Positions 9,942 to 38,253 of a stretch of DNA of 64,000 nt are shown piece by piece. This stretch comes from Leucobacter sp. PH1c (lineage in GTDB: Bacteria > Actinomycetota > Actinomycetes > Actinomycetales > Microbacteriaceae): the NCBI RefSeq assembly GCF_000633415.1, contig NZ_AYMV01000030.1, positions 1-64,000 on the forward strand, read 5' to 3'. Both the position numbers and the translations under genes were made by a program. Every line of letters begins with the position of its first letter. Position 1 is the stretch's first letter. The notes under the pieces were generated by a model, which was given only the letters and a program-made list of their open reading frames with translations, did no database searches and was not told the origin of the DNA.

Positions 9942-10018
<77 letters not shown>

Positions 10019-10020
10019 GA

Positions 10021-16922: not shown

Positions 16923-16924
16923 GC

Positions 16925-19393: not shown

Positions 19394-19841
19394 CACCCGG
19401 TGGCCTATGGGTAGCGCGCCATGCTGCGGTCAGCGCAGTAGAGGATTCGGTATAAGGAGCTGAGCTGCATTGGACTGACTCTATGGTGCCGTGAAGTTCG
19501 TTCCTCACACAAGTACGCGACTCGCTGCCCGTGAACCGCAACTGAAGGAACGGTGCCATCACCAATGATGATTGAACGACTCAGCGACTTGGGCAACGAC
19601 GGAGCTGCAAAAAACCGTCAAGGCTTGCTTGCACCCGGCCGCGTAGAGACCCCTGCGCATGGAAGGGTATCGGAGGCAATTGCTCACTGTCGGGAGTGAG
19701 CGAACCATCGCAGATGTGGGCTTCATTGGGTGGAAATTCTGACCGTTCATCTGGCTGTTGGTCTAGGCGGTGAGGAATCTCACACCGAGAATTCCTACAT
19801 GCCCCTGACCTGCTGGTTCTCGGGGCGGGGGTTCCTGTCGT
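19394..19841. other. Intergenic, 448 bp after the integrase remnant
   Basis: No gene is supported; short frames on both strands lack recognisable domains. Runs such as GCAAAAAACCGTC and several near-repeats of GGTGCC are visible but form no clear att site or terminator. It may contain debris of earlier mobile elements. Confidence 0.4.
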
Positions 19842-21359: not shown

Positions 21360-24163
21360 TTCGTGGCACCAGATTCGACATTCTTTCGGCGGGATCTTTT
21401 GACAGCGATCGGCAGCTCGTTGGCTGTCGTGAGCTTGGCGTAGCTGGTGAACAGCGCGCGCAGTCGGCTTTCGTCGCTGACGGCACCTCTCAACCCAAAG
21501 CACTTGTCGACGGAGGAGTCGAGTTCGCGGTGTGCTCGCACGAGTTCCGGGGACATCGCGAGGGGGTTGTAGTGGTCTGCCAACGAGCGTTCAGGGTGTA
21601 GCGCTCGCGCATCCAACACGGCCCGGCCGCCAGCGATGACGGCAGCCCGCTCTTTGTCGGTCATTGGCAGCAGGGGAAACGTGTTCCAGGTCAGCGTGTT
21701 CGAGAAGCGCAAGTCCGACTTGATACGACCGCCCACCGCCTTCTGCCAGGCGATGAAGGCTGAGGAGGAGATGATTGCGAACGCGATGCCATCCGGGTCA
21801 TCAGCTTTGAAGTTCGCATCACCGCAGATTACTTCCGGTGGAAACACTGCGGTCGGAAAGTAGCGTCGGGTTTCGCTAACGTGACGTGGAACGCACACGT
21901 ATGGCGTGTCTGGTTGGGAGCGCTGACCGAACAGGTGCGGAGTCTCAGCCATCTTTCGAGTTGACTCCGCAGCGGAGTCCGCCCGGAACTGCCGGACGGC
22001 ATCCAGTCGGCGCCGCAGAATGGGCGAGCGGGCGATGTCACTCGGGTCCAGATCGACGAGCCAGAAGCACCAGCGCGGCTCGTTGTGGATGAGCTGACGC
22101 GCACCTACAAACGGTCGGATGTATTTCGCCGCTACGGGGTCTGCGGAGACTTCGTCGTAATCCTCGACCTCGATTAGGAGGTTCCCGCCATCACGAGCCA
22201 TGTTGCCGAACACCATCTGTGGAAGTTGCGGAGCCAATAGCGTACGACGCTGCTCGACGAGTACGTTAGGTCCGTCCACCAAGTAGCCGTTGAGCTGTCC
22301 GATAACTGGCAGCTCAACGGCTTCACCCTTCACGTTGCCTGAGTAGTCGAACAGGCGAGCGCGTTTTTTCTGTGTTCGGTCGAATCCTATGACAGAGCAG
22401 TGCACCGCGGCGGCACCGGGTGCTTCGCTTGTCCAGGCGAAGGTGCGGTGCGCAAACTTGATACGCCATGCGGCAGCGAAGACAGGACCGAACAGTGCCG
22501 GCACCGGTTCGCCCTGCGCAATTGAGTTCGTGGACACGAAAGCGAACTCTCCTGCATACCCTGGTCGGTTGAACAGATCGAGGGATTTGGCGTACCAGCC
22601 GGTGACGTAGTCGAGTCGGCCGATGTCTTTGCGGCGCCACACGTCCCGCAGTTCCTGGGCCTGCTCATTCGAACGGGTCGCGTGGCCGAGGAATGGCGGG
22701 TTGCCCATGATGTACAGATGTTCGGTGGGCTCGACGACGTCGCCCCAGTCCGTGCGTAGCGCGTTATCGACCTGGATGCTTCGGATTTTGTTCAGTGGAA
22801 GGGTGTCTGGCGCAGCACCGAGGGCCAGCTCCATTGCTTGATTGGCCTGGTGTTCTACCAGGTGGAGGGCAGTGGCAGCGATCTGTGCTGGCCATTCCTC
22901 AAGCTCAATCCCGTGGAAGCTCGACAGCCGGACGGAAAGGTGCTCCTCGGTGAAGAACATCGTGCGAGCTGTGTCGCCCGAGAGCTCCTGGATACGGAGG
23001 AGGATTTCAAGATCGAGCGCGCGCATCTGTCTGTAACCGACGACGAGGAAATTGCCGCATCCGCACGCTGGGTCGAGGAATCGCATCTGGCCCATGTCCG
23101 CGCGCAGCTTCTTGAGCGTGGCGGTGTCGTAATAGCCGTCCGTGAACCGCTGCCGCAGCTCGTCAAGAAACATCGGGCCGATGACCTTCAGAATGTTTGT
23201 TTCGGTGGTGTAGTGCTCGCCGAGCTCGCGACGTGCGGATTTATCTTTGACGGCTTGGAAGAGGCTGCCGAAGATGGCAGGCGAGATCGCCGACCAGTTG
23301 AACATCGCCGAAGCGATCAGCCGATCGCGCATTTCAGTATCGAACGAGGGGATTGACACCGATTCCTCGAAGACGCCGCCGTTGACGTATGGGAAACGTG
23401 AGATCAACTCGTCTAGGTTTGATTGCCGCCGGCTAGGGTGCCGACCCATAACCTGGTATAGCAGCGATAGCTGCGGGCCGAGATCAGAGCCGTCATGAGC
23501 GGTACGCGTTTCAAGGAACTCGAGGAATAGATCGCGATCCCACACGCCGGCGTCATCGGCATAAAGTGCGAAGAGAGTGCGTACCAAGAACACCGAGGCC
23601 TCGTGATCGTCGTACCCCGACCCCTCAAGAGCCTCGTACAGCGAAGCCATCAGCTTCGCGGCCTTGATCGATGCAGCTTCCTGATCCTTTGATCCGAAGG
23701 TGCGTTCACCGTATCCTGAGAGGAAGGCCAGCTTGTCAGCGTGTTCCCGCAGCTGAGTCAGCGTGAACTCCTGGACACTGTCATTCTCGGCGTGCAGGTC
23801 GAGTAGGCGGAGCCTGCGGAAGTCGCTGGTGAGAACCCAGCGGGGGACCTCCGGATCGGGGAGGTCATCAATGTAGTCGAGCGCTTGTTTTTCGGCGGCG
23901 ACGAGATCTTTACCGGCGGATTTCATCTCGATCAGTGCGAGACCGGGGACCAGGGCATCGATGTATCCACGTGAGCCGGTTGAGGAGCGCTTAACACGCT
24001 TCTCATAGAAGGCAGCTCGGGTCTGGGTGATCCCGTATACCCCGAGCAGGTCCCGAACGAATGATTGAGCTTGCTGCCGCTCGTCCCCGGGCTCGTCTTG
24101 CCAATCGCGAATGAACTGCGAGGCTCGAGTTCGGATCTCATTCATCGACAAAGACTTTGGCAC
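21356..24163 (-). CDS. MmeI-like restriction-modification protein (nuclease plus adenine methyltransferase)
   Basis: The 935-residue product has the MmeI/type IIL order. An N-terminal PD-(D/E)XK nuclease has Asp69 in YIDALVPG and Glu79-x-Lys81 in LIEMKSAG. A helical spacer ends with KSARRELGEHYTTETNILKV. The methyltransferase has motif I RFLDPACGCGNFLVVGY (about 361-377) and motif IV YIMGNPPFLG (about 484-493), and a C-terminal target-recognition region with SDLRFSNTLTWNTFPLLP follows. Such single-chain enzymes methylate adenine in one strand and cut at a distance. Both catalytic centres look intact. Length is close to MmeI (919). What is unusual is the translationally coupled PLD-type protein downstream. 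Confidence 0.88.
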   Translation of the reverse strand: MPKSLSMNEIRTRASQFIRDWQDEPGDERQQAQSFVRDLLGVYGITQTRAAFYEKRVKRSSTGSRGYIDALVPGLALIEMKSAGKDLVAAEKQALDYIDDLPDPEVPRWVLTSDFRRLRLLDLHAENDSVQEFTLTQLREHADKLAFLSGYGERTFGSKDQEAASIKAAKLMASLYEALEGSGYDDHEASVFLVRTLFALYADDAGVWDRDLFLEFLETRTAHDGSDLGPQLSLLYQVMGRHPSRRQSNLDELISRFPYVNGGVFEESVSIPSFDTEMRDRLIASAMFNWSAISPAIFGSLFQAVKDKSARRELGEHYTTETNILKVIGPMFLDELRQRFTDGYYDTATLKKLRADMGQMRFLDPACGCGNFLVVGYRQMRALDLEILLRIQELSGDTARTMFFTEEHLSVRLSSFHGIELEEWPAQIAATALHLVEHQANQAMELALGAAPDTLPLNKIRSIQVDNALRTDWGDVVEPTEHLYIMGNPPFLGHATRSNEQAQELRDVWRRKDIGRLDYVTGWYAKSLDLFNRPGYAGEFAFVSTNSIAQGEPVPALFGPVFAAAWRIKFAHRTFAWTSEAPGAAAVHCSVIGFDRTQKKRARLFDYSGNVKGEAVELPVIGQLNGYLVDGPNVLVEQRRTLLAPQLPQMVFGNMARDGGNLLIEVEDYDEVSADPVAAKYIRPFVGARQLIHNEPRWCFWLVDLDPSDIARSPILRRRLDAVRQFRADSAAESTRKMAETPHLFGQRSQPDTPYVCVPRHVSETRRYFPTAVFPPEVICGDANFKADDPDGIAFAIISSSAFIAWQKAVGGRIKSDLRFSNTLTWNTFPLLPMTDKERAAVIAGGRAVLDARALHPERSLADHYNPLAMSPELVRAHRELDSSVDKCFGLRGAVSDESRLRALFTSYAKLTTANELPIAVKRSRRKNVESGATK

Positions 24164-24336: not shown

Positions 24337-25201
24337 TCAGGCAGCGAGTGCGAGCTGTTCGTTCATGATGGTCGCGTATTCGATCGGCGTCAAACGCCCC
24401 AACCGGGCCTGTCTGCGGCGTCGATGGTACGTGCGCTCGATCCAAGTCACGATCGCTGACCGGAGCCCGTCACGAGTACCCCAGGTCTTGCGGTTCAGGA
24501 CGTTTTTCTGGAGCAGGCTGAAGAACGAGTCCATCGCCGCGTTGTCACCTGCAGCACCAACGCGCCCCATCGAACCGGCCATGCCATGACCGGTGAGCGC
24601 GCGCTGTAGTTTCCGGCTTCGGAACTGCGATCCGCGATCCGTGTGCAGTTACACACCCACGCACGTCTCCACGGCACAGCACAGCGTTATTCAACGCCGT
24701 CACCGGGGGCGCGGACGTCATCTTTGAGTCGATGGAGTAACCCACGATCCGGTTTGACCACACGTCTTTCACCGCGCATAGGTAGAGCTTGCCTTCACCA
24801 GTCCAATGCTCGGTGATGTCCGAAAGCCATAACTCGTTCGGGGTAGCGGCCACGAACTCGCGCTGCACCAGGTCGTCATGAACGGGTGGGCCAGGATTCC
24901 TGCCTTTCCCGCGGGCTTTCTTCTTCCCAAACGCTGACCACCACTGCTGATCGCGGCAGAGCCGCCACGCAGTCCGGTCACACATCGGTTCCCCGAGAGT
25001 CCTCGCTTCGTCGGCGAGGAACCGGTACCCGAACTCGGGGTCCTCAAGGTGGGCGTCATGGAGCGCGTTCGCGCGATACGCCTGCACGAGGTCACGCCCG
25101 GTGACTGGACTACGCAGCCACCGATAGTAGGGCTGGCGTGAGAGCTTCAATACCCGGCACGACACCTGGACGGGGATCCCGTCGCGGGCGAGCTCTTTCA
25201 C
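24337..25201 (-). pseudogene. IS3 transposase orfB, frameshifted
   Basis: The 5' part (from 25201) has the IS3 HTH_21 region (VLKLSRQPYYRWL) and the start of the DDE domain (NELWLSDITEHW, first Asp). At about 24649-24651 one extra base changes the frame; removing it restores CVLHTDRGSQFRSRK (second Asp) and runs on to the stop at 24337. The third catalytic position reads NAAMDSFFSLL, with Asp in place of the usual Glu of AAMESFF-type sequences. Normally orfB is expressed by -1 shifting from orfA at GGGAAAAGG (25214-25222), after which RLYPLVKELARDG continues in frame. Confidence 0.88.
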
Positions 25202-25506
25202 GAGCGGGTAGAGCCTTTTCCCGGCAGGTGCGCCTGCGAGAGATACGCGGCCGCCCGACGAAGCACTTCCACTTCTTGTTCAAGGAGCTTGTTATGTTTG
25301 CGAAGCTCACGAAGTTCCGCATTCTCGGAACGCGTGACGCCGGGCTTCTGGCCATGTTCGACGCGTTCTTCTCGGAGCCATTTGTCGAGGGTGCTGACGT
25401 GGATTCCGAAGCCTTTCGCGATCTGCGCCAGTGTGACCTCCGGGCCGCGATCCAACGCGATCCTCACGACGTCATCACGGAACTCTTTGGGATAACGAGG
25501 GGGCAT
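25198..25506 (-). CDS. IS3 transposase orfA (HTH_Tnp_1)
   Basis: The 102-residue product is intact: helix-turn-helix (YPKEFRDDVVRIALDRGPE, VTLAQIAKGFGIHVSTLDKW), then a leucine-zipper-like coiled coil (ENAELRELRKHNKLLEQEVEVLRRAAAYL). Its stop overlaps the first orfB ATG (ATGA), and the GGGAAAAGG near its end is a plausible frameshift site. By itself it would act only as a repressor or dimerisation partner. Confidence 0.92.
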   Translation of the reverse strand: MPPRYPKEFRDDVVRIALDRGPEVTLAQIAKGFGIHVSTLDKWLREERVEHGQKPGVTRSENAELRELRKHNKLLEQEVEVLRRAAAYLSQAHLPGKGSTRS

Positions 25507-25572: not shown

Positions 25573-25796
25573 TTCCTCCGCTTGCTCCAGAAGTAGGTCA
25601 GGTCAGAGCGGAAACCAAACTTCATGTCAAGTCGGGCGCAGGCTGAGAGCGCAAGACGGCCCATGCCCGAGCTTGGCGACAACGCTTGCGTCGTCGTCGT
25701 CGCCAAACAAGACTGACGTGCGGGAAACCACATGCGGACCACATCACGCCTCATTTGCGGTGTCGCGTGCAGGGCGTGAATCCATACGGTTGGGCC
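25573..25796. other. Leader region of the biosynthetic cluster
   Basis: 224 bp between the IS and the MFS exporter start. No gene is supported; a minus-strand frame of 66 codons ends inside the IS repeat and may be a gene fragment cut by the IS. The cluster promoter must lie here or have been displaced by the IS. Confidence 0.4.
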
Positions 25797-27278
25797 ATGT
25801 CGGGTTCCCCAACCATCCGCGTTTCAGCTCAGCTCGGACGCGCCGCTAGCAGGCCCTCCCTGGTCGTTCTGTCGGCCTGCCTCGCTCAAGTCATCATCGT
25901 TCTCGACACCACGATTGTTGCAGTCGCGCTCCCTGACGCGCAGTTGGATCTGGGGTTCGCCAGCGCTGACCGTCAATGGGCTGTCACTGCATACACACTC
26001 GCATTCGGATCCCTGCTCCTTGTAGGGGGACGCGTGTCAACCTTCCTTGGCGCAAAACGCGCCTTTCTGATCGGCGCAGCAGGTTTTGGCATCGCGAGCC
26101 TTCTTGGAGGCCTTGCGAATGACTTTGGAACTTTGATCGCTTTCCGTGTCCTCCAAGGAGTCTTCGCCGCGTTGCTTGCCCCTACAAACCTCTCGCTCAT
26201 GAATGCTGCGTTCCCAGGGGCAGCTGGACGGTCCAAGGCCTTTGCAATCTTCGGCTCCGTCGCAGGGGCTGGTGCTGCGCTGGGGCTTGTTCTGGGCGGA
26301 GCGCTTACTGAGTTGGGGGATTGGAGGTGGTGCTTCTTCATAAATGTCCCCCTGGTCGCTGGAACAATCCTCGTCGCGATCAATGGGCTCCGCGGCACGG
26401 CCGGCAGAACTTCGGGTTCACTCCTTGATGACGTGACCGGACTACTGTTGGGAACCGCGTCGGTGTCGGCACTGGTGTTCGCTTTCTCGTGCGCCGAATC
26501 CGACGGCTGGACTCACTTATCGACTCTGGTGTTGCTCGTCGGCGGCGCAGTTCTCGCCATCGTATTCGTGATCCGTGAACGATTGGCGGCTGAACCTCTT
26601 GTCCCGTTGAGCCTGCTCGCTGACGCTCGGCGTTCGTCTTCGTATCTCGCGATCGCCCTGGTCGGCTTCGCTCAGATGGGCGCGTCCGTGTACCTCACCT
26701 TTTACCTGCAAGAGGACCTGGGGTACTCGCCGCTGCGAACTGGACTCGCTTTCCTCCCCATGGTTGTGGGGCTGATCGTCGCTGCAATCGTTAGCACGCG
26801 ATTCCTTGTGCCTCGCTTCGGACTCGGAGTCGTCCTGACTGTTGGCCCTCTCATGCAAAGCATCGGCTTCATTTGGTTGTCTGGTCTGGGAACCGTGGAC
26901 GAATACGTTTCAGAGTTGGTCTCGCCCATGGTGGTGATAGGGATGGGGCTCGGGACCGTTATGGCTCCCGCGATGTCTTCCGCGACCGTGGGTCTTAACC
27001 CAGCACGGGGCGGCCTTGCCTCCGCACTCGCCAACACAAGCCAACAGCTGGGGGCCTCACTTGGTGTGGCTTTCCTCAGCACGATCGCAACGTCGATTGT
27101 GTCCGAGCGAATAGAGGCTGCGGCTCCTCTGACGCGAGCTGAGGCTGCCACTGTTCGTCTCTCTGCCGACGTCGCGGCCTACTCCGCGGGATTTCAATGG
27201 CTCGCAGGCATCACCGCGTTGGTCGCGGCCCTCATCGCGATGCGCTTCGCCCTCGGCCGACTTGTCGGTGGCCAATGA
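25797..27278 (+). CDS. MFS exporter, DHA2/EmrB-QacA type
   Basis: The 493-residue product has about 14 predicted transmembrane segments. Helix 1 contains the DHA2 motif LDTTIVAVALP (about residues 37-47), and RVLQGVFAALLAP is the motif after helix 3-4. It is a proton-driven drug exporter by family, most likely pumping out the product of the NRPS/KS genes downstream and giving self-resistance (inference). The ATG at 25797 is preferred because it precedes the first helix by a normal 20-25 residues; the frame extends upstream without support. The TGA overlaps the next start (ATGA). Confidence 0.88.
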   Translation: MSGSPTIRVSAQLGRAASRPSLVVLSACLAQVIIVLDTTIVAVALPDAQLDLGFASADRQWAVTAYTLAFGSLLLVGGRVSTFLGAKRAFLIGAAGFGIASLLGGLANDFGTLIAFRVLQGVFAALLAPTNLSLMNAAFPGAAGRSKAFAIFGSVAGAGAALGLVLGGALTELGDWRWCFFINVPLVAGTILVAINGLRGTAGRTSGSLLDDVTGLLLGTASVSALVFAFSCAESDGWTHLSTLVLLVGGAVLAIVFVIRERLAAEPLVPLSLLADARRSSSYLAIALVGFAQMGASVYLTFYLQEDLGYSPLRTGLAFLPMVVGLIVAAIVSTRFLVPRFGLGVVLTVGPLMQSIGFIWLSGLGTVDEYVSELVSPMVVIGMGLGTVMAPAMSSATVGLNPARGGLASALANTSQQLGASLGVAFLSTIATSIVSERIEAAAPLTRAEAATVRLSADVAAYSAGFQWLAGITALVAALIAMRFALGRLVGGQ

Positions 27279-27952
27279 GCGTGAGAATCATAGCGGCCCG
27301 CCTCCCCGCAGACCTGGCAACGCTCGATCGAGGCGGCTGGAGCCCAGCGTCAGCCGCTCGAGCGGCGATGATCGCCCGCAAGCACCGCGCAATTGACCGG
27401 GTTCGATCACGGATGGCTGATTACCTCCTTCACCACGTCTGCGGCGCTCCAGCAGGGTACGACCACATCGGTCGGCCGATACATCCCACTGGCGCTGGTG
27501 CCTCTGCAAGCCACGATGGAGTATGGGTGGTCGCGGCTACTGCAAGGTACGCGATTGGGGTCGATGTCGTCGCCATTGACCGGGCTTCATCTATCCCCAA
27601 TACTGCGTTCGACCCGCTTGAGCTCACTCGAATCGGCAAGGGCGTTACCAGCGAAGCCCAGCTACTCAAGGCCCGGATATGGGCGGCGAAGGAAGCTCAC
27701 CTCAAACGACTGGGCATAGGCCTACTCCGCCATCCGGGCACGATAGTCAGCAGTCCGTCCGCTCGGCACATCCGCATTCTCGACGGCAACGATTCTTCGT
27801 GTGTTGCCCTCCAAAGTCTCGACGCGAGCCACATCCTCGCTGTCACGGTCCCTGACGAGAACACCGGGGTCCAGCTCCTTGAATACACCACTCCGATCGA
27901 TGCGCGGCGCAATCAGGCCCGCCCCCGCTACTCGGCCCCCGAAAGGACTTAG
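27275..27952 (+). CDS. Sfp-type 4'-phosphopantetheinyl transferase
   Basis: The 225-residue product has the two family signatures: GVDVVAIDRASS (about residues 93-104; Asp for magnesium) and KARIWAAKEAHLKRLGIGL (about 131-149; the WxxKEA motif). An N-terminal HPTGAGASASHD matches the family SHS region in a modified form. It transfers phosphopantetheine from CoA to the carrier domains of the adjacent NRPS (Ser in GGTS) and KS-ACP-TE (Ser in GADSL). The start overlaps the MFS stop and its own TAG overlaps a GTG at the NRPS start. Confidence 0.9.
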   Translation: MSVRIIAARLPADLATLDRGGWSPASAARAAMIARKHRAIDRVRSRMADYLLHHVCGAPAGYDHIGRPIHPTGAGASASHDGVWVVAATARYAIGVDVVAIDRASSIPNTAFDPLELTRIGKGVTSEAQLLKARIWAAKEAHLKRLGIGLLRHPGTIVSSPSARHIRILDGNDSSCVALQSLDASHILAVTVPDENTGVQLLEYTTPIDARRNQARPRYSAPERT

Positions 27953-27954
27953 TG

Positions 27955-30900
27955 ATGATGACGAACACCTTCGGCCCTTACCCTGCAACATCGGCACAGC
28001 GCAGCATGTTTTTGCACTCTGCTGCCCACCCGTCCGACACTGCGTTCGACCTCGGATTCGTCTTCCGGGTCGAAGGGGACGTCGACCGCGCTCGCCTCAT
28101 CGATGCGACACGCGCCGTATTCTCGGCTACGACAGCATTCTCAACCACCTTCCGGCACTCTGACGATGGTTTGATCGCTGCGCCGGGAACAGGTGTTGCG
28201 CGAGTGCTCGAGTTCGATCGGACACAGACGCCGACAGAGCTTCTCGAAGCCATGGTCCTTGAGGAAACCGAGCAGATGCTCGCATCAGGTCCGATTGCCC
28301 CGCACGATCCTCATCAGGTCACGGCTCGTTTCTACTACGGTCGGAAGACGTTGCTCCTCTCCTTCGTTGCCTCACACCTCGTCAGCGATGCGTACTCCTT
28401 CTATCGAGTCGTTGGCATGATCTCGACGCTGTACGCATCGATCGAGGCTGCATGGCCCGATCTCGTAAGTGGTCTAGGTGAGCACCCCGGCACCGTCGCT
28501 CCGCCGCCCATCTCTCCCCGGTCGATCGATCGCTACCGTGCACTCGTCGAAACGGTACCTGAGCCAGCTTCCTTGCCACTTGCAGTTCGCGACCGTGGGC
28601 GAATCAGAGGAACCCGCTCGCGGCTCCGGCTCGATGGGCCCGAAGTTCGTGCGCTGCGTGAGAGCGAGATGGTGGGGGAGTACGGTTTGGCGGCCGTTCT
28701 CTTCGCCGCCCACGCCCATGTCCTGAGTCGCCTTGCTGGCTCCGGGGCGATCACCGTCGGAGTACCAGTTGCAGGCCGTGCGGGGCATCGAGCTAAGAAT
28801 GCCGTCGGCTTCTTCGTAAACACTCTTCCGCTCCCCGTTTTGATCGACGGAAGCACGACGTGGCGGAGCCTGTGCGGGCAGATCTCCTCCGGTATCCGAA
28901 CCCTCCAGGGCGCTCAAGGTCTCAACATCCACGGGGAAACTGGCTCCGTCCTGTTCCCGGGGCCGAGAGCGACGGTCGACAACGCCGTGACGTTTTACGC
29001 TCAGGATCTCGCTCTCGAACTTGAGGGCGCTAGTGTGGTCTCTCTTCCCATAAATCGCACGGATCTCCCGTATCCACTCACAATCACTTTCGCCGATGAA
29101 CAGGATGCGATTCGCATCGAGGTTGGCGTGTCGGATGCCTTCCATCAGCCGACGGCAGCGGCGCAGGTGATGCAAGCCCTCGCTCTCGCGACGGCACAGC
29201 CTGACGCTCTCGTTGTCGACGATGCCGTGTTCGACGATGCATCAACGTCATCCAGCCCCGTGGAAGTTGCGAAGCCCGAGCTCACGGTTATCGACCTCAT
29301 CCGTTCGATCGCCGTCACCCAGCCCCACTCCATCGCCCTGAGCGCCGACGAAGAGATCAGCTACGCGGAGCTCGCTGACCGGATGCTCTCGGGCGCCGGT
29401 GAACTGGACGCCCATGAAGCCAGCCGGCTCGTGGTTGTGCGGATGAGAAAGAGCATAGACGCCGTGATTGCGATCCTGTCCGTCCTCGCATCCGGTCGAG
29501 CCTACGTTCCGATCGACCCCGCCGCACCTCCCCACCGCGTCCAGCTCATCCTGAGCAAGATCGCCAAGGAACTCGATGCATCACCAACGATTCTCGTCGA
29601 CGATAGTGCCACCGGCCCTGGCGAGATGTGTGCCGCAGTGATTACCCGCACATCGCGGCGCACTCGGCCAATGCGCCCGCCGACAGTAGCGGATCGCGCC
29701 TATGTGATCTTCACATCGGGCTCCACGGGGGAACCGAAAGGAGTCGTCGTCTCTCACAGTGCGCTTTCGGCGCTACTCGGCTCTGCTCGTTCGGTCATCA
29801 GTTCGAGCGCCGGAGACCGCTGGTGTCTCTTTCATTCACTTGCGTTCGACTTCAGCGTTTGGGAGCTCTTCGGAGCGATTACTACGGGTGGCACGCTGAT
29901 AGTTCCACGCCCAGAAGAGGTGTCCCACCCTGATGCCTTTGCCGACCTTGTCGAGCACGCGGGTATTACGGTGCTCAACCAGACACCATCCGCGTTCCGG
30001 CGACTGGCTGACGCTCTGCGCAGAAGCACTCGCACTTTTCCCGACGTTCGCGTGGTTGTCTTTGGGGGCGAGGCGCTCCACCCCGCTGATCTCCGGTCCT
30101 GGCGAGGCGAAGCGAACGCCCAGACACGATTCATCAACATGTACGGGATTACTGAAACGACGGTACATGTGACGGCAAAGGAGATCACGGAGCCCGAGAT
30201 TGACTGTGAAAGTCGGAGCATGATCGGGGAACCCCTGGCACATCTTGGCATCATTATCCTCGACGAGCTCGGCCGCCCAGCAGCAGTTGGCGTGGCAGGC
30301 GAATTGCTGGTCTTCGGCGCTGGCCTCGCGGACGAGTATCTCGGGCAGGAAGAGCTGACGGCAGCCAGATTCCGCACCATCGAGGTCCAGGGGCGCAAGC
30401 TACGCGCATATTGCACAGGCGACCGTGTGCGCCGCGACATCGACGGAGAACTCGTCTACCTGGGGCGCATCGACCAACAGGTCCAGCTGCGTGGTTACCG
30501 AATCGAGCTAGGAGAGATCGAAGCCGCCATCGCTGCGACCGGCCGAACGAGCGCAGCGGTAGCTGCGCTCGTCTCACCGGAGGGGCGGGAACCGTTCCTC
30601 TGCGCTTGGGTCGTCACCACCTCTGAGGAGGACGCAGACGCCATCCGCGCGGAGCTCGGGGATCACATCCCGTCGTACATGGTTCCGGCCGTCGTCGTAG
30701 CCCTCGAGACGATCCCGATGACTCGGAACGGGAAACCGGATGTCGCCGCCCTTCCCCTTCCTGCACATGAGACGGACGAGGAAGTCGACGATAGCCTCTC
30801 CGGGCGCATCGCTCGGGTCTGGGCGGAGGCGATTGGGGCTGGGCGTGTGCGAGCTCAAGACCGCTTCCTCGAAGTTGGCGGCACCTCGATGCACGTGATG

Positions 30901-31017
30901 GAAGTCCACGAGCGATTGCGCACTGACCTCGGGCTACACGACTTGACGCTCGTCGACCTCTTCGAATATTCCACCCCAGCCGCCCTGGCCGACTACGTGC
31001 TCAGCACTCGCGCCTAA
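27955..31017 (+). CDS. Nonribosomal peptide synthetase module, C-A-T
   Basis: The 1020-residue protein has one complete module. The condensation domain (about 1-430) has a variant active motif SHLVSDA (HHxxxDG with first His to Ser and Gly to Ala, catalytic His kept). The adenylation domain (about 440-930) has A3 FTSGSTGEPKG (about 583), A4 FDFSVWELFG, A5 NMYGITE (about 728), A7 YCTGDRVRRD, A8 QVQLRGYRIELGEIE and A10 NGKPD. The carrier domain (about 945-1020) has Ser in VGGTSMH. Aligning the pocket with GrsA gives the ten-residue code DFWNVGMVHK, the classic threonine code. ATG at 27955 follows GAAAGGA; GTG 27952 and ATG 27958 are alternatives. A starter-type C domain implies acylation of threonine. 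It feeds the KS protein encoded 18 bp downstream. Confidence 0.92.
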   Translation: MMTNTFGPYPATSAQRSMFLHSAAHPSDTAFDLGFVFRVEGDVDRARLIDATRAVFSATTAFSTTFRHSDDGLIAAPGTGVARVLEFDRTQTPTELLEAMVLEETEQMLASGPIAPHDPHQVTARFYYGRKTLLLSFVASHLVSDAYSFYRVVGMISTLYASIEAAWPDLVSGLGEHPGTVAPPPISPRSIDRYRALVETVPEPASLPLAVRDRGRIRGTRSRLRLDGPEVRALRESEMVGEYGLAAVLFAAHAHVLSRLAGSGAITVGVPVAGRAGHRAKNAVGFFVNTLPLPVLIDGSTTWRSLCGQISSGIRTLQGAQGLNIHGETGSVLFPGPRATVDNAVTFYAQDLALELEGASVVSLPINRTDLPYPLTITFADEQDAIRIEVGVSDAFHQPTAAAQVMQALALATAQPDALVVDDAVFDDASTSSSPVEVAKPELTVIDLIRSIAVTQPHSIALSADEEISYAELADRMLSGAGELDAHEASRLVVVRMRKSIDAVIAILSVLASGRAYVPIDPAAPPHRVQLILSKIAKELDASPTILVDDSATGPGEMCAAVITRTSRRTRPMRPPTVADRAYVIFTSGSTGEPKGVVVSHSALSALLGSARSVISSSAGDRWCLFHSLAFDFSVWELFGAITTGGTLIVPRPEEVSHPDAFADLVEHAGITVLNQTPSAFRRLADALRRSTRTFPDVRVVVFGGEALHPADLRSWRGEANAQTRFINMYGITETTVHVTAKEITEPEIDCESRSMIGEPLAHLGIIILDELGRPAAVGVAGELLVFGAGLADEYLGQEELTAARFRTIEVQGRKLRAYCTGDRVRRDIDGELVYLGRIDQQVQLRGYRIELGEIEAAIAATGRTSAAVAALVSPEGREPFLCAWVVTTSEEDADAIRAELGDHIPSYMVPAVVVALETIPMTRNGKPDVAALPLPAHETDEEVDDSLSGRIARVWAEAIGAGRVRAQDRFLEVGGTSMHVMEVHERLRTDLGLHDLTLVDLFEYSTPAALADYVLSTRA

Positions 31018-31035
31018 CCCAGAAGAAGGCTTACT

Positions 31036-33576
31036 ATGACCGTACAAGATCCTGCTCCCGCCTACGGGAACGACGTTGCGATAACCGGGATCGCTCTCCG
31101 TGTACCCGGAGCCGACGATGTGAACGCCTTCTGGCAATTGACCGCTGAGGGGACGTCAACATTCCGATCCGTCTCAAGGGCAGAATCAGAACGATTCGGA
31201 TACACGTCCGCTCAGATCGACGATGAGGACTTCGTGTCCGTAGTGAGCGCGCTCGACGATTTCGATGCCTTCGACCACGATGCGTTCGGCATCTCAGCAC
31301 GTGACGCGGCGCTCATGGATCCACAACACCGCGTCTTCTTGGAATGCGCTCGCAGGGCACTCGATGATGCTGGATTCGGTGACGTTACAGGACTCAAGGT
31401 CGGCGTTTTCGGCTCAGCAAGTTCGAGTACCTACCTCACCGGACCCGTGCGCGCGGCAGGGCTTTGGGATGAGTCAGATCTCAATTTCAGTGCCATGCTC
31501 GCCAACGACAAGGACTTCCTGTGCACGCGCACGAGCTACGCGCTCGGACTCACCGGTCCGTCTGTAGTGGTGCAGTCCGCGTGCTCGAGCTCGCTTCTGG
31601 CTGTCCACCTCGCCAGGCAAGCACTCCTGCACGGGGAATGCGACGCGGCAATCGTCGGTGGTGTCTCCATATCGATCCCGCATCTCGGAGGCTACCTCAA
31701 GCGCTCCGGAAGCATCTTTAGCCCAACCGGATCGTGCCGGCCATTCGACCGCACTGCCGATGGAACAGTAAAAGCACATGGTGCCGCGGCCGTTGTCCTA
31801 GTGAGATCAGAGGACGCCAACCTTCAACATGTATATGCGAACGTGGCCGGAACCGCTGCCAACAACGACGGGGCTGACAAGGTCGGATTTCCCGCGCCAG
31901 GGGTATCTGGGCAGGCTGCCGTAATCCGATCTGCAATGGCGTCTGCTGGCATCACCGCCGACAAGGTGCGCTACATCGAGTCTCACGGGACAGGCACGCT
32001 TCTGGGGGATCCGATTGAGATTCGCGCTCTTCGACTTGCGCGCGAAGGTTCAACCAAATCGTGCTATCTCGGTAGTGCGAAGGCGAACGTCGGCCATCTC
32101 GACGCGGCTGCCGGTGTCATGGGGCTCGTGCGAGCTGCACTCGTGCTCGAGAAGGGCGTCATTCCTCCGCTCGCCGGTTTCTCCGAATCGAATCCGCTCC
32201 TCGATGTGGGTGAGGAAGTCGTCCTCCCTACAGAACCCGTCGATGCGCCGTGGCTGACCCACGCTGGTGTCAGCTCGTTCGGGATGGGCGGGAGTAACGT
32301 GCATGCCATTCTTCGCCGACGCGCCGACGCGCGCGGCCGGCAGGTTTCCCCCCAAGGCCGTCGCCTCGTGCGAACGCGGCACTGGGTTGGCCACCCCCGG
32401 CACACTCGAACACCGGAAGTCTCGAAGGCCGCCGGTCGCGCGACGGAATCGGCACGTTCAGTATCGCTTCCATCTCTGGAAGAACTGCTTGCTACCGTCC
32501 GCGAGGTCCTGCAGCTTCCCGAACTCGCGGCCGAGGACCGACTCGTGGATGCTGGTGCCGATTCGCTCGCCCTTATCGATATCACGGCAGCTCTCGCGGA
32601 ACGGCACGGAACGGCATTGGACGTCGCCGAACTCGAACGGATCGGCACGGTCGAGAAACTGTTTCAGACACACGTCATCGACAGGACGTCTGGCAAGGTG
32701 GGCCCGGTCGATGAACCGACCCGCCGTCACATAGCTCGGCAGCCACGATCGGCCTCCGATAACGCCGTCCACATCACGCCACCTCGTGAGCGTACGCTTT
32801 TCCTTGTACATCCCGCTGGTGGGACTACGACCTGCTACGCCGGCGTCGCTACTCACATTGGAGAGGATGTCGGAGTCACTGGTCTCGCTTTCCCTGCTGA
32901 CTTCCTCGGGCAGCGCATTACGATGAGAGAGCTAGCGGCCTCCTATCTCGCCACGATCACCGGAATCCAGCCGTCCGGACCTTACCTAATCGGTGGGTAC
33001 TCATTTGGCGGGAACCTTGCCGCCGAGCTGGCACTGCAGTTGGAGGAGGCTGGCGAGACAGTCGAGCTTCTCGTCATGATTGATTCGCATCCTCCGCACG
33101 CCTACACCAGCGGTGCCTGCGATGAGCAGGCGTACGTCGCTGCCTTCCCGGCGCTGCTCAGCACGCTTGTCCCTGGCATTCGATTCGCCGAGGACGTTCG
33201 TGCTCGCGCGGACGCACGCGGAATCCTCGAGGCTGTCGAACACCCGGCCTGGCCTGAGAGCGTGCGCAACGAATTCGCGCGATTCTTCGAGATCTGGCGA
33301 GAAAACCACGGCATGCTTAAGCGCTGGACGCCAGATCGACTGATCGACTGTCCTGTGCTCATCATCGAGGCTTCCGAACCGGAGCCCGAGGAAGTGCTCG
33401 ATTGTCTCTCGATCTCCCCGTCGACTGTGAACGAGTGGTCGAGATATCTCTCCCGGGCCCCGCAGATTATTGGCGTCGATGGCGACCACTACTCCATTTT
33501 CCGAGATCTGACCTCGCTTCGGCGCATCGGTGAGATTCTCGGTCAAGCGGCGACGCAGCGAGAACTGGTTCGATGA
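31036..33576 (+). CDS. KS-ACP-TE polyketide synthase without acyltransferase
   Basis: The 846-residue protein has a ketosynthase (about 12-425) with catalytic Cys in QSACSSS (about 178), His in IESHGTGTLLGDP (about 314) and His in ANVGHLDAAAG (about 350). An acyl-carrier domain (about 470-545) has Ser in GADSLAL, and a type I thioesterase (about 590-846) has nucleophile Ser in GYSFGG (about 653), Asp in VMIDSH and His in GDHYSIF (about 815). There is no AT, KR, DH or ER domain and no trans-AT gene in the cluster. The KS lacks the usual GEGAG loop, reading ADGTVKAHGAA. It could extend the threonyl-T intermediate once with malonate from a FabD-loaded ACP, or use the KS for a non-extending reaction such as cyclisation. 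Product unknown. Confidence 0.9.
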   Translation: MTVQDPAPAYGNDVAITGIALRVPGADDVNAFWQLTAEGTSTFRSVSRAESERFGYTSAQIDDEDFVSVVSALDDFDAFDHDAFGISARDAALMDPQHRVFLECARRALDDAGFGDVTGLKVGVFGSASSSTYLTGPVRAAGLWDESDLNFSAMLANDKDFLCTRTSYALGLTGPSVVVQSACSSSLLAVHLARQALLHGECDAAIVGGVSISIPHLGGYLKRSGSIFSPTGSCRPFDRTADGTVKAHGAAAVVLVRSEDANLQHVYANVAGTAANNDGADKVGFPAPGVSGQAAVIRSAMASAGITADKVRYIESHGTGTLLGDPIEIRALRLAREGSTKSCYLGSAKANVGHLDAAAGVMGLVRAALVLEKGVIPPLAGFSESNPLLDVGEEVVLPTEPVDAPWLTHAGVSSFGMGGSNVHAILRRRADARGRQVSPQGRRLVRTRHWVGHPRHTRTPEVSKAAGRATESARSVSLPSLEELLATVREVLQLPELAAEDRLVDAGADSLALIDITAALAERHGTALDVAELERIGTVEKLFQTHVIDRTSGKVGPVDEPTRRHIARQPRSASDNAVHITPPRERTLFLVHPAGGTTTCYAGVATHIGEDVGVTGLAFPADFLGQRITMRELAASYLATITGIQPSGPYLIGGYSFGGNLAAELALQLEEAGETVELLVMIDSHPPHAYTSGACDEQAYVAAFPALLSTLVPGIRFAEDVRARADARGILEAVEHPAWPESVRNEFARFFEIWRENHGMLKRWTPDRLIDCPVLIIEASEPEPEEVLDCLSISPSTVNEWSRYLSRAPQIIGVDGDHYSIFRDLTSLRRIGEILGQAATQRELVR

Positions 33577-34115
33577 GCGCCGAGCGCAGTGCCGGGGCAG
33601 GACGTACGGCGATGCTCATCGCCTTCGGATGTCACAACGCCGAAGAGATCGCCTTCTCTGACCATGGCAGCAGGCTTGATCCCCGTTTCCTCGCCAATCT
33701 CGGTCTTTCTGAAGAAGACTATCGCGCGGACCGAATGAGTATCGCCACCGCGCTATTGAGCGCTGTGGTGACCTGTGCAACGCATTCGAGAGGTGGTCGA
33801 GCTCGGCGGCCGATCACTGCCGCGATCGCGATTGCGTCTGCTGGTGCACTGTCCGTGAATGCTGCAGGGCATCTGCTGCAGGCCTTGGTGCGGCGTAATT
33901 ACAACCCTGGTCTTGTCACCGCACCCTTGCTCCTGATGAGTTCTATCGCCGCTATCCGTGGGTTCCGGGCCGATTCCAGTATCTCCAGAGTGGGCGCCGG
34001 AACCGCGGTCGTGGCTGGAACGGCACTCTCCGTGCCCGCGATCGTCGCCTCGCTCCGCATTGCTCGGCTTGTCAGACCCACCACCATACAAACTCGAAAG
34101 GAAAGCTCCCAATGA
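33573..34115 (+). CDS. HXXEE-domain membrane protein
   Basis: The 180-residue product has the HxxEE motif (HNAEE, residues 21-25) that defines the HXXEE family and a second family element, NAAGHLLQALVRRNYNPGLVT (about residues 93-113), among about four hydrophobic helices. The conserved His and Glu residues in membrane segments suggest a metal-dependent membrane enzyme, but no member's reaction is firmly known to me. It overlaps the KS-ACP-TE stop and the FolD-like start by four bases each, so it belongs to the cluster. Confidence 0.8.
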   Translation: MSAERSAGAGRTAMLIAFGCHNAEEIAFSDHGSRLDPRFLANLGLSEEDYRADRMSIATALLSAVVTCATHSRGGRARRPITAAIAIASAGALSVNAAGHLLQALVRRNYNPGLVTAPLLLMSSIAAIRGFRADSSISRVGAGTAVVAGTALSVPAIVASLRIARLVRPTTIQTRKESSQ

Positions 34116-35026
34116 CCGCACAGCTCATTCATGGGCGCCCAGTGCAGCAAGGCCTCGTCGCGGCGGCACTCGCCAAGACCTCCTCGGCAGGCGTACTGCC
34201 GCGTGTCGCCCTGCTTTCAGTGGCCAGTGATGACCCGATGCTCGCAATCAACCGAGAGCTTCACTTGCGCACCTTCGCCGCCTACGGCGTTGAGGGTATT
34301 GACGTCGCACTTCCCGCCGACGCAACGCTCGACACTCTTCTCGAACGCATCCATGAGGCCAACGACGACCAAGCGGTCCACGGCGTCATGGTGCTGATGC
34401 CGCTTCCCTCGCGCCTTTCCATCCGCGACATCCTTCCAGCAATTGATCCAAGGAAAGAACTTGAAGGCCTGCATCCGGAGCACACCGCTGGATTGCTCCC
34501 ATCGAACCGTCCGGCACCCACTGGTGTCCTGCCCCTCGTTGGAGAGGCGGTCATCCTCGCTCTTGCCGAATATGGCATCCCGCTAGAAAGCCGAAACATT
34601 GTTCTCCTGACGGAAGAGCCATTGATGCGCAGCAACCCCGTCGCCAATGTTGTCGCCAGATGCGTCGCGCCTGCGATGCTCCCGCCGAGTTCACCGTTGG
34701 CGATCGTGCCCATCGATCATCCCCAAGCTCGCCGACTCGCTTCCGCGGCTGATGTTCTGATTGTGAGTCTTGAGCGCCCGGAGGTCGTCTCCGCTGAGTG
34801 GGTGAAGCCCGGCGCAACTGTGATCGATTTCAACCCGAGTCTCGTCGGCTTCGTCGAACGTGAGGACGGCACCCAGGCACCGATTCTTCGTGGTGGAATC
34901 GCGACTGAGGACGTCGCCTCCGTCGCGGGACATATCCTCCCCGTGCCTGGGGGTATCGGTCCCGTCATGCTCGGTGTCCTCATTCGGAACGCTGCGCTGG
35001 CGGCGCTCGCATCGCGCACCCCGTAA
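34112..35026 (+). CDS. FolD-like protein with degenerate active site
   Basis: The 304-residue product aligns end to end with methylenetetrahydrofolate dehydrogenase/cyclohydrolase: VMVLMPLPSRL in place of VQLPLP, IDPRKELEGLHPEHTAGLL in place of PxKDVDGFHPxNxGxL, and ITPVPGGVGPMT seen as LPVPGGIGPVM. The Tyr and catalytic Lys of the YxxxK helix (E. coli Tyr50, Lys54) are missing: the segment reads LAINRELHLRTF. Asp of KDVDG is Glu-Leu-Glu, and the NADP loop GxSxxVGxP is changed to LTEEPLMRSNPV. Classical FolD chemistry is therefore doubtful. Co-translation with the biosynthetic genes suggests a recruited role, perhaps handling a one-carbon or folate-like substrate. A normal FolD should exist elsewhere in the genome. 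Confidence 0.8.
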   Translation: MTAQLIHGRPVQQGLVAAALAKTSSAGVLPRVALLSVASDDPMLAINRELHLRTFAAYGVEGIDVALPADATLDTLLERIHEANDDQAVHGVMVLMPLPSRLSIRDILPAIDPRKELEGLHPEHTAGLLPSNRPAPTGVLPLVGEAVILALAEYGIPLESRNIVLLTEEPLMRSNPVANVVARCVAPAMLPPSSPLAIVPIDHPQARRLASAADVLIVSLERPEVVSAEWVKPGATVIDFNPSLVGFVEREDGTQAPILRGGIATEDVASVAGHILPVPGGIGPVMLGVLIRNAALAALASRTP

Positions 35027-35034
35027 ATAGTTTG

Positions 35035-35058
35035 TCGGGTGAGCTCGACCCCACCCGA
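35035..35058 (+). terminator. Weak hairpin after the FolD-like gene
   Basis: 7-bp stem TCGGGTG/CACCCGA with a 10-nt loop, nine bases after the stop; no T-run. It may end the cluster mRNA before the regulator gene. Confidence 0.4.
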
Positions 35059-35194
35059 TGCGCAGGGTCGGGGCCACACCGCGTGAGAATGACTTCTCCA
35101 CGTAATATTGACACCAGCTCAAGAGTATCGGGGGGACTGCATCTCAAACACGTATCGCTGAATGACCGACTAATCGAGGAGCTGGAGAAATCAG

Positions 35195-37807
35195 ATGCCG
35201 TTCTTCCGACGCAACGAGTTGATGAAAGCCGTAGAGCTGACAAACGGTGGCGCTGGCGCGACGGTCATCGTGCACGGCGCAGCGGGTTCCGGCAAATCTC
35301 GCTTTGTGACAGAGGCTGCAAGCATCCTTCAGCACTCAATAGCGGTGAGAGTGAATCCAGCCGAGTCGAACCGTCCCTTTTCCGGCATTGTGAATCTCCT
35401 TGCTGCGCTACCCAACCCTCGTACGCATCACCTATCCCGCGCAATCGCAAGTGCGAAGGACCGTGATTCGTTTATCGTGGCTGAACGGGTTGTGTCATGC
35501 CTGCAGGACGCAGAGGATCTCCCTGAGCTCATCTTGATCGACGACGCTGATGTGATGGACAGCGAGAGCACGAGTGCTCTCGCTGTCATCTCTCGCCGCC
35601 TCGGCGGAACATCCGTACGCCTCGTGATTATGGTCTCGACATTCGGGGGGCGCCGCCCGTTCGACGGCTTGCCTACCCTTGAGATTGGGGCCCTCGACCA
35701 CAGCAGAATCCGAACCCTGGTCGAAACAGAGACGGGTGCAACGCCACACGATGCGGTTCTCGAACACATCGAAACGATCTCTGCTGCAATTGCGGGCAGA
35801 GTTGTCGATGCGGCTCACCACCTGAAGCCTGCGCAGCTCACCGGGTCCTCCCCATTGCCGACCCCACTCCGACAAGGCCGGCATGTTGCCGCGGCTTTCC
35901 TCGAACCACTCGAGGGGATGGACGACCGAATGGTGGAGGCGATCGAGTATCTCGCTTCTACGCCGAGGATGCGAGCCTCCGACTTGCGCTCCCTGGTCGG
36001 GAGCGGAGTAGTTGACGAATTGCTCGATAGGTCATGGGTTGTAGCAGCCGACCAATGGGTAGCCATACGAGACGCCTCGGCCCGTTCGGCGATCTACTAC
36101 CAACACCTCGACACAGCTTCACGCCAACGTATCCATTCGTTCCTAGCGGAAATGAGCGACCAACCGGTCGACGTTGCGTGGCATGCGGGATACCTGGATC
36201 CTTCCCCGGAGCATGCATCCGCGCTACGACAAGTAGCTGCGGATTTGCTGCACTCAGGCGACGTAGCACTAGCACTCGAGTACATCGAACGCTCACTCTC
36301 ACTTCCTGTCTCGGACGATACTGGTCCAGAGCTGTTGATGCTCGCCGAGACGCTCTTTTACCGAAAGAACACCTCTGCGGCAGGGCGGCTCATTGACATT
36401 GTGGATCGCGCTGCGCCGACAGTTCCTCGAACTCGCCTCGCAATGGTAAGCCTGCGCGTTCGTATCGAGTATCTAACTTCGCAGAGCATACTCGGCACAC
36501 TCGCGGCAGAAGCTCTGGACCGCGACGAACACGCTGCTCCAGAAGACGCGACGCTCCTCACCGCCCTTCTGGCTATCTACTGCGCCGAGCGCTGGGAATT
36601 CAAGGAAGCAGAGTCGTACCTCGCACGTCTCAACGACCTGTCCGTGGGCAACGACCGCACGGCCACAGTTGTCGGGAACGCTCGCATCCAGATCGCGGCC
36701 ATGCAAGGCCAGACGCCGCAGCTCCCCACCGCCGCTGAAATTGCAATCAGTGTCGCGGACAAGTCCGCAGCCGTCCTCGCCCGACTCGCGTACGGCCGCG
36801 CCCTCACCTTTGCGGGCCGCTATCACGACGCACGTGACTTATTCGCACTCATCGTAGGGGCGTCGGCGGAGAGCGACCCACTCTGGGTGTCGACAGCACG
36901 GTTCTATTCCATTGAGAACGACCGACTTGCAGGCGACTTCCACGGCGCATTCAGTGCGCTCGCGGACATTCTCCGCATGTCCAGCGGAGAGGGTGCGCCA
37001 GAACCGTTTCGCTTGTTCTATGAGTACTGGTACCACATCGAGCATGACGCGGATGCGGCGGCCAATGTGGTTCTCGATAGACTGTATGCGACTCTTCAAG
37101 GCCGTCGGAACCCCGCAATTGCAGCTCGTCTTGACGCTTACCTCGGTGCGCTTGCCCTTCACCGCGATGATCTTTCGGATGCCGTTCGGCTTTTGATGCG
37201 CGCCAGACTGATCACTGCGGAGATAGAAGATCCTCAACTCGCACGCGTCGATGCTGACTTGGTGGAGAGCCTTGTCCGATCTGGAGACGAGAGCACGGCC
37301 CGCACGATCTTGTCTGACTTTGAACGGCGAGCTGCGCTGGCGCCATCGCGCTGGGCCGAGCTCGCAATCGAACGCTGCCATGCGGTAATGGCTCCACCTC
37401 CAGAAACAGTGCGCACCTTCGAGAGGCTCCTCGCGCAGTTTGGCCCACACGACTCCGACTACGAGTACGCCAAGACGCTCCACGCGTACGCGGGCGCACT
37501 GGCTGCAGCAAACATGCCTGCAGAGGCCGGTCAGGCCGCTTCTGCGGCAGCAAGTGTTTTCCGCCGCATCGGCCTCCCCAGATGGGCAACACGCGCTGCC
37601 GCGGTACCGGTGTCGGATCTGAGCCGTTCAGAGAAAGCCGTCGTGGATTTGGTCGTTGCTGGACGGCGCAATAGAGAGATCGCAGCGACGCTGTTCATTT
37701 CAGTGCGCGCCGTTGAGGCGCGGCTCACGGGGGTGTATCGCAAGCTCAATATCTCTTCACGAGCTCAACTGATTGCGCGATTCAGCTCGACGGCCGATAT
37801 GGGCTGA
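35195..37807 (+). CDS. LAL-type LuxR family regulator with AAA ATPase domain
   Basis: The 870-residue product is a large ATP-binding LuxR regulator: Walker A GAAGSGKSR (about residues 29-37), Walker B LILIDDADVMD (about 110-120), a long TPR-like helical middle and a C-terminal LuxR HTH (about 808-868: LSRSEKAVVDLVVAGRRNRE, then ATLFISVRAVEARLTGVYRK). Such regulators often sit at the edge of actinobacterial biosynthetic clusters and activate them; that is the likely role here. Unlike the two other large LuxR proteins in the window it has a canonical P-loop. GGAG precedes the ATG at 35195. Confidence 0.88.
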   Translation: MPFFRRNELMKAVELTNGGAGATVIVHGAAGSGKSRFVTEAASILQHSIAVRVNPAESNRPFSGIVNLLAALPNPRTHHLSRAIASAKDRDSFIVAERVVSCLQDAEDLPELILIDDADVMDSESTSALAVISRRLGGTSVRLVIMVSTFGGRRPFDGLPTLEIGALDHSRIRTLVETETGATPHDAVLEHIETISAAIAGRVVDAAHHLKPAQLTGSSPLPTPLRQGRHVAAAFLEPLEGMDDRMVEAIEYLASTPRMRASDLRSLVGSGVVDELLDRSWVVAADQWVAIRDASARSAIYYQHLDTASRQRIHSFLAEMSDQPVDVAWHAGYLDPSPEHASALRQVAADLLHSGDVALALEYIERSLSLPVSDDTGPELLMLAETLFYRKNTSAAGRLIDIVDRAAPTVPRTRLAMVSLRVRIEYLTSQSILGTLAAEALDRDEHAAPEDATLLTALLAIYCAERWEFKEAESYLARLNDLSVGNDRTATVVGNARIQIAAMQGQTPQLPTAAEIAISVADKSAAVLARLAYGRALTFAGRYHDARDLFALIVGASAESDPLWVSTARFYSIENDRLAGDFHGAFSALADILRMSSGEGAPEPFRLFYEYWYHIEHDADAAANVVLDRLYATLQGRRNPAIAARLDAYLGALALHRDDLSDAVRLLMRARLITAEIEDPQLARVDADLVESLVRSGDESTARTILSDFERRAALAPSRWAELAIERCHAVMAPPPETVRTFERLLAQFGPHDSDYEYAKTLHAYAGALAAANMPAEAGQAASAAASVFRRIGLPRWATRAAAVPVSDLSRSEKAVVDLVVAGRRNREIAATLFISVRAVEARLTGVYRKLNISSRAQLIARFSSTADMG

Positions 37808-38253
37808 GCGCTGTTGGGACTCTCCACGAGTTCTTGAGCGAAACGCCCTTCGACTTCCGCTCGTTGTCGCTCCCGGTGGGGTTGTGGGCGTGGTCCGATT
37901 GAGTCTGTCCACTGATTCCGGCATCGGGTCGATGATCATTGTCATAAGGACGCCGGTGTTCCCATACTGCGTCTCTGGCCTCATTGCGGTCATACGTGGC
38001 CGCATACGCCCACTACCCACGCACCGCGCGGCGCGTCCCCAGAGTAGGGGCTGAGCATACCTACGCAGATCCCTGGTCAGCGCGACGATTGGGCATGGGT
38101 GCTAGGTAGTGCTCGGCTTTCGCCGTGAGTGCGAAAAAAATGCTCCCTAGTGCAGGTGCCTGCGTGGTGAAATTGCTGTGCACTCGTGAGAAGCACCCCA
38201 ATGATGTGACGTGACACGCTGCTCCGGGCGCCTCGATGGATGGGAGGCAGCTG
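37808..38253. other. Right boundary region of the accessory segment
   Basis: No gene is supported in these 446 bp. Composition returns from island-like to backbone-like toward the right. It contains CACTACCCA (38011-38019), GCTAGGTAGTGC (38101-38112), an A7 run (about 38134-38140) and CCTAGTGC (38146-38153); the first and last recur before the surface-protein gene at 40.9 kb. No copy of the tRNA-Pro 3' end was seen. Confidence 0.5.

Follow-up and report, generated by a model that had tools for sequence, protein, structure and literature searches.

A MucD/MucE-type gene cluster with a threonine-type module and a FolD-like gene in Leucobacter sp. PH1c, probably directing synthesis of an N-acyl tetramic acid

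In the mutanocyclin cluster (mucA-J) of Streptococcus mutans, MucD is a protein of condensation, adenylation and peptidyl carrier protein domains (C-A-PCP) and MucE one of ketosynthase, acyl carrier protein and thioesterase domains (KS-ACP-TE) (PMC10161427). In vitro, MucE formed an N-acyl tetramate from an acyl-D-Leu N-acetylcysteamine thioester and malonyl-CoA with an added trans malonyl-acyltransferase, the ring being closed by the TE via lactam formation; only the D-configured substrate was accepted, and deacylase activity was found in 16 of 16 selected MucF homologues tested (PMC10161427). In the available text of two further papers, MucE is termed a trans-acyltransferase (trans-AT) polyketide synthase (PKS) whose cluster is without an AT gene, so that the host must provide the AT (PMC6694145), and MucF is described as an acylase of the HXXEE family, MucI being a predicted transporter of DHA2 type (PMC9112991). 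A distribution survey with a mucA-E core reported 60 Firmicutes strains and three strains of the Bifidobacteriaceae group (PMC10161427). Here, we describe a cluster of this kind in the actinobacterium Leucobacter sp. PH1c, located in a 64,000-nucleotide stretch (the window; positions 1 to 64,000 of contig NZ_AYMV01000030.1), whose product is probably an N-acyl 5-(1-hydroxyethyl) tetramic acid that is exported by a major facilitator superfamily (MFS) protein and partly N-deacylated by an HXXEE protein.

Seven open plus-strand frames, overlapping or closely packed, span 25797-37807 and include a nonribosomal peptide synthetase (NRPS), a PKS, a 4'-phosphopantetheinyl transferase (PPTase) and a LAL-type LuxR regulator:

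25797..27278, plus strand: DHA2-type MFS exporter with a MucI/RtcT-like role (PF07690, MFS_1, E 2e-41)
27275..27952, plus strand, frame open from 27197: PPTase (PF01648, ACPS, E 1.1e-9)
27952..31017, plus strand: NRPS C-A-PCP, counterpart of MucD (Pfam Condensation, AMP-binding, PP-binding)
31036..33576, plus strand: AT-less PKS KS-ACP-TE, counterpart of MucE (Pfam ketoacyl-synt N and C, PP-binding, Thioesterase)
32326..32475, plus strand: short KS-ACP linker within the PKS (alignment)
33573..34115, plus strand: HXXEE protein, candidate N-deacylase of MucF type (PF13787, E 1.3e-11)
34112..35026, plus strand: FolD-like protein (PF00763/PF02882, both THF_DHG_CYH domains)
35195..37807, plus strand: LAL-type LuxR regulator (GerE E 1.4e-11, AAA_16 E 1.2e-8)

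The initial annotation, made from the sequence alone, had listed exporter, PPTase, C-A-T, KS-ACP-TE, HXXEE and FolD-like proteins followed by a LAL regulator, and frames and Pfam matches bore out each of them. Its statement that the architecture matched no cluster it could name did not hold: the arrangement is that of the mutanocyclin and reutericyclin (muc/rtc) clusters, with C-A-PCP (MucD), KS-ACP-TE (MucE), HXXEE (MucF) and DHA2 (MucI) proteins. This core, at low sequence identity, matches a characterised cluster whose product is known; the match does not include the substrate amino acid, the genes for tailoring or that for the FolD-like protein. The kind of cluster is therefore already known, and the window holds a variant of it that differs in the amino acid, in the host group, in lacking the acetylation genes and in having the FolD-like gene. 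We name it a MucD/MucE-type cluster rather than a muc-like cluster in the strict sense, since the mucA-E features that define the latter in the 2023 survey are not all present.

Compared with mutanocyclin mucA-J, as described in the available text of PMC10161427, PMC9112991 and PMC6694145, the window shares a C-A-PCP and a KS-ACP-TE on two proteins, the lack of an AT, the HXXEE protein and the DHA2 MFS protein, but differs by a threonine code, by a PPTase of its own and by a FolD-like gene, lacks a mucABC match and carries a LAL regulator where muc has TetR regulators. Three muc-like plasmid loci were compared, those of Lactiplantibacillus plantarum pLQ801 and pLP315 and of Priestia megaterium. 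The pLQ801 cluster, which is of reutericyclin type, shares the NRPS, KS-ACP-TE, PPTase, MFS and HXXEE genes, the PPTase gene there lying 3' of the PKS, and differs by its own mucABC, two TetR genes and the adenylation-domain code DYFTLGLVVK. The Priestia cluster shares the KS-ACP-TE, a nearby HXXEE gene and a Thr-like code (DFWNIGMIHK), but has mucABC and an NRPS split over two genes, as in type IV (PMC10161427). Its HXXEE gene lies near the split-NRPS cluster (2355-9995), although the survey states type IV to be without mucF (PMC10161427). In pLP315, an IS256-type transposase gene (12202-13497) separates the KS part from a distinct thioesterase gene; pLQ801 has one KS-ACP-TE gene.

In a tree of 94 KS sequences (matches above 100 bits and 340 residues, with long-branch warnings), a clade of ten with support 100/99 comprised six actinobacterial sequences of the window type, three muc-like ones and one from a KS-ACP-TE of S. 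blattellae, whose second KS (L054_1_53) fell outside it. Because most rows had been collected with the window protein as query, sampling was uneven; S. mutans MucE was represented by its L. plantarum and Priestia homologues. In a tree of 54 rows, obtained by removing ten long or duplicate rows by hand (including Priestia, L. plantarum pLP315, L. chromiireducens and an inactive Klugiella copy) and by thinning near-duplicates, the window, Cellulomonas, Klugiella, Isoptericola, S. blattellae and L. plantarum muc-like KSs again formed one clade (100/99). By these trees, the window KS is of common descent with the muc-type KSs.

In the PKS, the catalytic residues sought were all present (KS C183/H317/H354, ACP S510, TE S656/H818). 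The absence of an AT from the set, pointed out in the initial annotation, was confirmed: the Acyl_transf_1 model of Pfam found nothing in the KS-ACP-TE protein at E 0.01, and the whole 3.12 Mb genome contained a single PF00698 match, FabD-like and beside FabH, which led us to reject a dedicated trans AT encoded outside the cluster. The seven further KS-TE proteins scanned were likewise without an AT domain match at a threshold of E 0.001. By analogy, the absence is a known trait of MucD/MucE assembly lines, because MucE is termed a trans-AT PKS of a cluster without an AT gene, the host supplying the AT (available text of PMC6694145). The annotation had left two roles for the KS, elongation with malonyl-ACP loaded by the fatty-acid FabD or a non-elongating condensation or cyclisation of an acyl-threonyl intermediate. 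Trans loading of malonyl by FabD with an elongating KS fits best, judging from the intact Cys-His-His set, the sole, FabD-like AT match and the same state given for MucE. A non-elongating KS that closes the acyl-threonyl intermediate, by a Dieckmann reaction as in TAS1 or to a β-lactone as in SalC, would agree with the missing AT but is quite improbable given the downstream ACP, the TE with Ser and His, the intact KS residues and the position among muc-type KSs in the tree. The window KS also scored lower against the TAS1 KS (6kog, 234 bits) and SalC (7s2x, 219 bits) than against 4wky (337 bits), which we take to be OzmN KS2; on these scores and on the ACP and TE residues, a TAS1-like or SalC-like KS was rejected. 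Fungal TAS1, which makes tenuazonic acid, shares with the pathway proposed for the window the formation of a tetramate from one amino acid with a KS. It is a single C-A-PCP-KS protein whose terminal KS performs the Dieckmann closure, with no ACP-TE; this layout was not found in the window, where the KS resides on a separate protein and is followed by ACP and TE. The L. plantarum and S. blattellae proteins have a KS-ACP linker that exceeds the one of the window PKS by about 100 residues; RhiE-like/CurL-like linker models of Pfam matched the L. plantarum pLQ801 and S. blattellae proteins and the inactive Klugiella paralogue, and gave no match in the window, Cellulomonas, Isoptericola, Priestia or active Klugiella proteins.

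The adenylation-domain signature, taken by motif, read DFWNVGMVHK. We take this code, and the choice of its ten positions, to indicate threonine, which supports the Thr-type NRPS module of the initial annotation. The code was identical in all four aligned actinobacterial relatives (Cellulomonas, Klugiella, Isoptericola and S. blattellae), and because of the Priestia code, Thr-type relatives may occur in Bacillota, too. The catalytic residues H142/D146 of the C domain and S979 of the PCP were present, the former aligning with the SHxxxD motif of the L. plantarum MucD homologue (SHLVSD in the window).

In tblastn searches at E 0.01, the MucA, MucB and MucC proteins of pLQ801 matched neither the window nor the loci of L. 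chromiireducens, Cellulomonas, Klugiella, Isoptericola and S. blattellae, while all three had matches in the Priestia and pLP315 loci. In the whole Leucobacter sp. PH1c genome, the MucB thiolase, the only one of the three searched for there and without a positive control, had no match. The mucABC products are an HMG-synthase-like protein, a thiolase and a zinc-ribbon protein and serve C-3 acetylation; because they are absent, a product without a 3-acetyl group is expected.

From these data, the following pathway is proposed. The PPTase would arm the PCP and ACP carrier domains, upon which the starter-like C domain would form N-acyl-Thr-S-PCP from PCP-bound Thr and a fatty acyl group supplied by primary metabolism. 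In the KS-ACP-TE protein, the ACP would receive malonyl from FabD of fatty-acid synthesis, and the KS would condense the N-acyl-Thr and malonyl units. Release by the TE with attack of the amide nitrogen would yield the pyrrolidine-2,4-dione ring of an N-acyl 5-(1-hydroxyethyl) tetramate devoid of 3-acetyl. The HXXEE protein could cleave the N-acyl chain for detoxification, for a deacylated product or for both, while the MFS protein would export the compound and the LAL protein regulate the set. The proposal draws on observed gene content, domains, active-site residues, KS descent, the one AT match, the lack of mucABC nearby and the residue loss in the FolD-like protein, and models the steps from acylation to deacylation on published MucD, MucE and MucF work.

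The main rival shares this assembly but assumes that the TE releases the chain via the Thr hydroxyl, giving a six-membered lactone, 5-acylamino-6-methyl-dihydropyran-2,4-dione. The conserved Thr code in the four relatives, by which the hydroxyl may be used, and the mere 26% identity of the ACP-TE to the muc-type protein would be in line with it; however, the studied relative MucE closes a lactam (PMC10161427), an N-acyl lactam is the most sensible substrate for an HXXEE deacylase, and Priestia, whose cluster has mucABC, also carries a Thr-like code. Hence, the lactone is considered unlikely.

Several observations weigh against the N-acyl tetramate. Identity to the muc-type proteins of pLQ801 is low (NRPS 26% over the full length of 1049 columns, KS 40%, ACP-TE 26%), and the mucABC genes are absent by tblastn of the locus. 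Leu, the muc substrate, is not indicated, and the side-chain hydroxyl of the Thr that the adenylation domain reads competes for the TE. The Pfam scan revealed no epimerase domain in the set, which matters for a MucE-type enzyme with its D-configured substrate, and the C domain was judged starter-like from its motif alone. With the window HXXEE protein as query, phmmer did not recover the L. plantarum copy; membership of PF13787 is all that the two have in common. Finally, the inner order of the KS clade is unsettled: the muc KSs stood next to the window group at 99/86 in the tree of 94 rows, with its long-branch warnings, and the order was unresolved in that of 54.

If the N-acyl tetramate is correct, MucD/MucE-type assembly extends to environmental actinobacteria and to threonine, and a definite small molecule is predicted from two proteins. 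A survey based on the mucA-E core (PMC10161427) would presumably not count clusters without mucABC as muc-like. Among the matches listed in the open-access literature, there was neither a threonine MucD/MucE-type cluster nor a FolD-like gene in such a cluster.

The HXXEE motif of the candidate N-deacylase is HNAEE (residues 21-25), and H21, E24, E25, H100, P112 and G113 were invariant in all five aligned actinobacterial copies. HXXEE, MFS and PPTase partners are common to the window and the pLQ801 cluster. The best NCBIfam model for the MFS exporter was TIGR00711 (216 bits, below the cut-off of 230), and the exporter was 59% identical to the Cellulomonas uda copy and 63% to that of Isoptericola. 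For the PPTase, the start is more likely the in-frame ATG at 27275 than 27197, because it produces a four-base ATGA overlap with the MFS stop. No match to the PPTase above 60 bits was found in the Cellulomonas uda, Klugiella and Isoptericola loci. LAL homologues lie beside the clusters of L. chromiireducens, Cellulomonas, Klugiella and Isoptericola.

The FolD-like protein scored 113 bits with the FolD model, versus 469 bits for the canonical FolD of the same genome. FolD enzymes rely on active-site Tyr, Lys, Gln and Asp residues and on an NADP-binding glycine motif. Alignment with the genome's own FolD revealed these residues to be changed to N47, H51, M96 and E118 (the Tyr and Lys positions were paired by ungapped reading of the aligned stretch) and the glycine motif to be replaced. 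By this alignment, the protein is not a working methylene-tetrahydrofolate dehydrogenase/cyclohydrolase. A spare working FolD for self-resistance was rejected as unlikely, as the protein lacks the canonical residues and the genome also encodes a canonical FolD. The four substitutions were invariant in four of four FolD-like copies, two of them near-identical, which speaks for a new function that has become fixed rather than for decay; probably, the protein binds or tailors the product. It is conceivable, though we regard it as tentative, that the folate-enzyme fold has been re-purposed for tailoring or binding of the Thr tetramate, for example in dehydration of the side chain to a 5-ethylidene group or in one-carbon transfer. 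Because 5-ethylidene tetramates such as magnesidin are known, dehydration of the 1-hydroxyethyl group would be a reasonable guess for the task of the extra enzyme. If so, the FolD fold would have a new task, and a so far unseen class of tetramates in actinobacteria would be indicated; in any case, a FolD paralogue that has lost its active site is a tractable puzzle. The structure model (mean pLDDT 59.8) was too low in confidence for a structural argument, and the best 50 Foldseek matches listed were all FolD/MTHFD proteins, adding little to the sequence. The gene was present in the window, L. chromiireducens, Cellulomonas and Isoptericola, and not in Klugiella, where the only match was FolD at 32% identity. 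At E 1e-40, the FolD-like protein was found in one of 394 genomes of a class-wide sample, the window's own.

A GTDB contig scan returned 47 loci, four of which had a PKS gene adjoining C-A-PCP and HXXEE genes: L. chromiireducens (98-99%), Cellulomonas uda, an uncultured Isoptericola (a genome that occurred twice with the same coordinates and was counted once) and Klugiella xanthotipulae. Where present in the latter three, MFS, NRPS, PKS and FolD-like proteins were 43-65% identical to those of the window, HXXEE proteins 37-49% and LAL proteins 28-39%. The set is beyond a chance assembly, because a 98.2% identical block occurs in L. chromiireducens L-1 and the set recurs in Cellulomonas, Isoptericola and partly Klugiella. 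In the family sample of 398 genomes, at least two, one of them the window's own, had a full-length PKS relative. The order sample contained two among 396 genomes (nine passed E 1e-90, seven through the KS part alone) and the phylum sample one among 396, the window's own (two passed E 1e-100, one through the KS part alone). In the sampled genomes, the cluster is rare and patchy.

In S. blattellae, a Thr-coded C-A-PCP and a KS-ACP-TE are followed by a gene of the leucine-carboxyl-methyltransferase family (6793-13745). Its genome had no HXXEE match with the C. uda protein as query or with the Pfam family, which matched in the other five of six genomes or records; the pair is perhaps another branch of the same kind. 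Klugiella xanthotipulae has a second, long KS-ACP-TE paralogue (2-2596), in which the KS Cys, both KS His and the TE Ser are replaced and no PP-binding match was obtained; this inactive copy has an open frame and lies beside a LAL gene.

The cluster has a GC content of 61% versus 71-72% in its flanks; in 2 kb steps, values were about 54-63% at 10-38 kb and 67-76% in the flanks. The whole set lies in a stretch (25647-38011) that is 98.2% identical in L. chromiireducens L-1. Identity falls to 76% in the gene that follows downstream and amounts to 86-90% between the folD regions of the two genomes. Together with the low GC content and an adjacent transposase, this difference in identity points to recent transfer of the cluster. 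For the canonical FolD protein, identity was 95% to L. chromiireducens, 79% to Klugiella and 69% to S. blattellae. That the window holds a silent remnant of a transferred cluster, making no product, would suit the low-GC region beside a transposase and the patchy distribution; yet no frame is interrupted, the catalytic residues examined are all in place, the 98.2% identity is kept in a second genome and related sets occur in five genomes, so that we give this possibility little credence.

Transposase genes, of IS3 type by eye, are situated directly upstream of the cluster (24545-25506; rve domain 24545-25201), and the L. chromiireducens contig starts 167 bases before the shared stretch that begins at 25647. 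A tRNA-Pro (GGG) gene (9942-10018) marks the left edge of the low-GC region; between its surroundings (9900-10250) and 10251-64000, no direct repeats of at least 14 bases, and hence no attachment site, were found. The low-GC region further contains defence genes (10402-24163) encoding a C5 DNA methylase, an HNH nuclease, a NaeI restriction enzyme, an AbiU-like AIPR protein, a PD-Lambda-5_A-like protein and an MmeI-type IIG enzyme.

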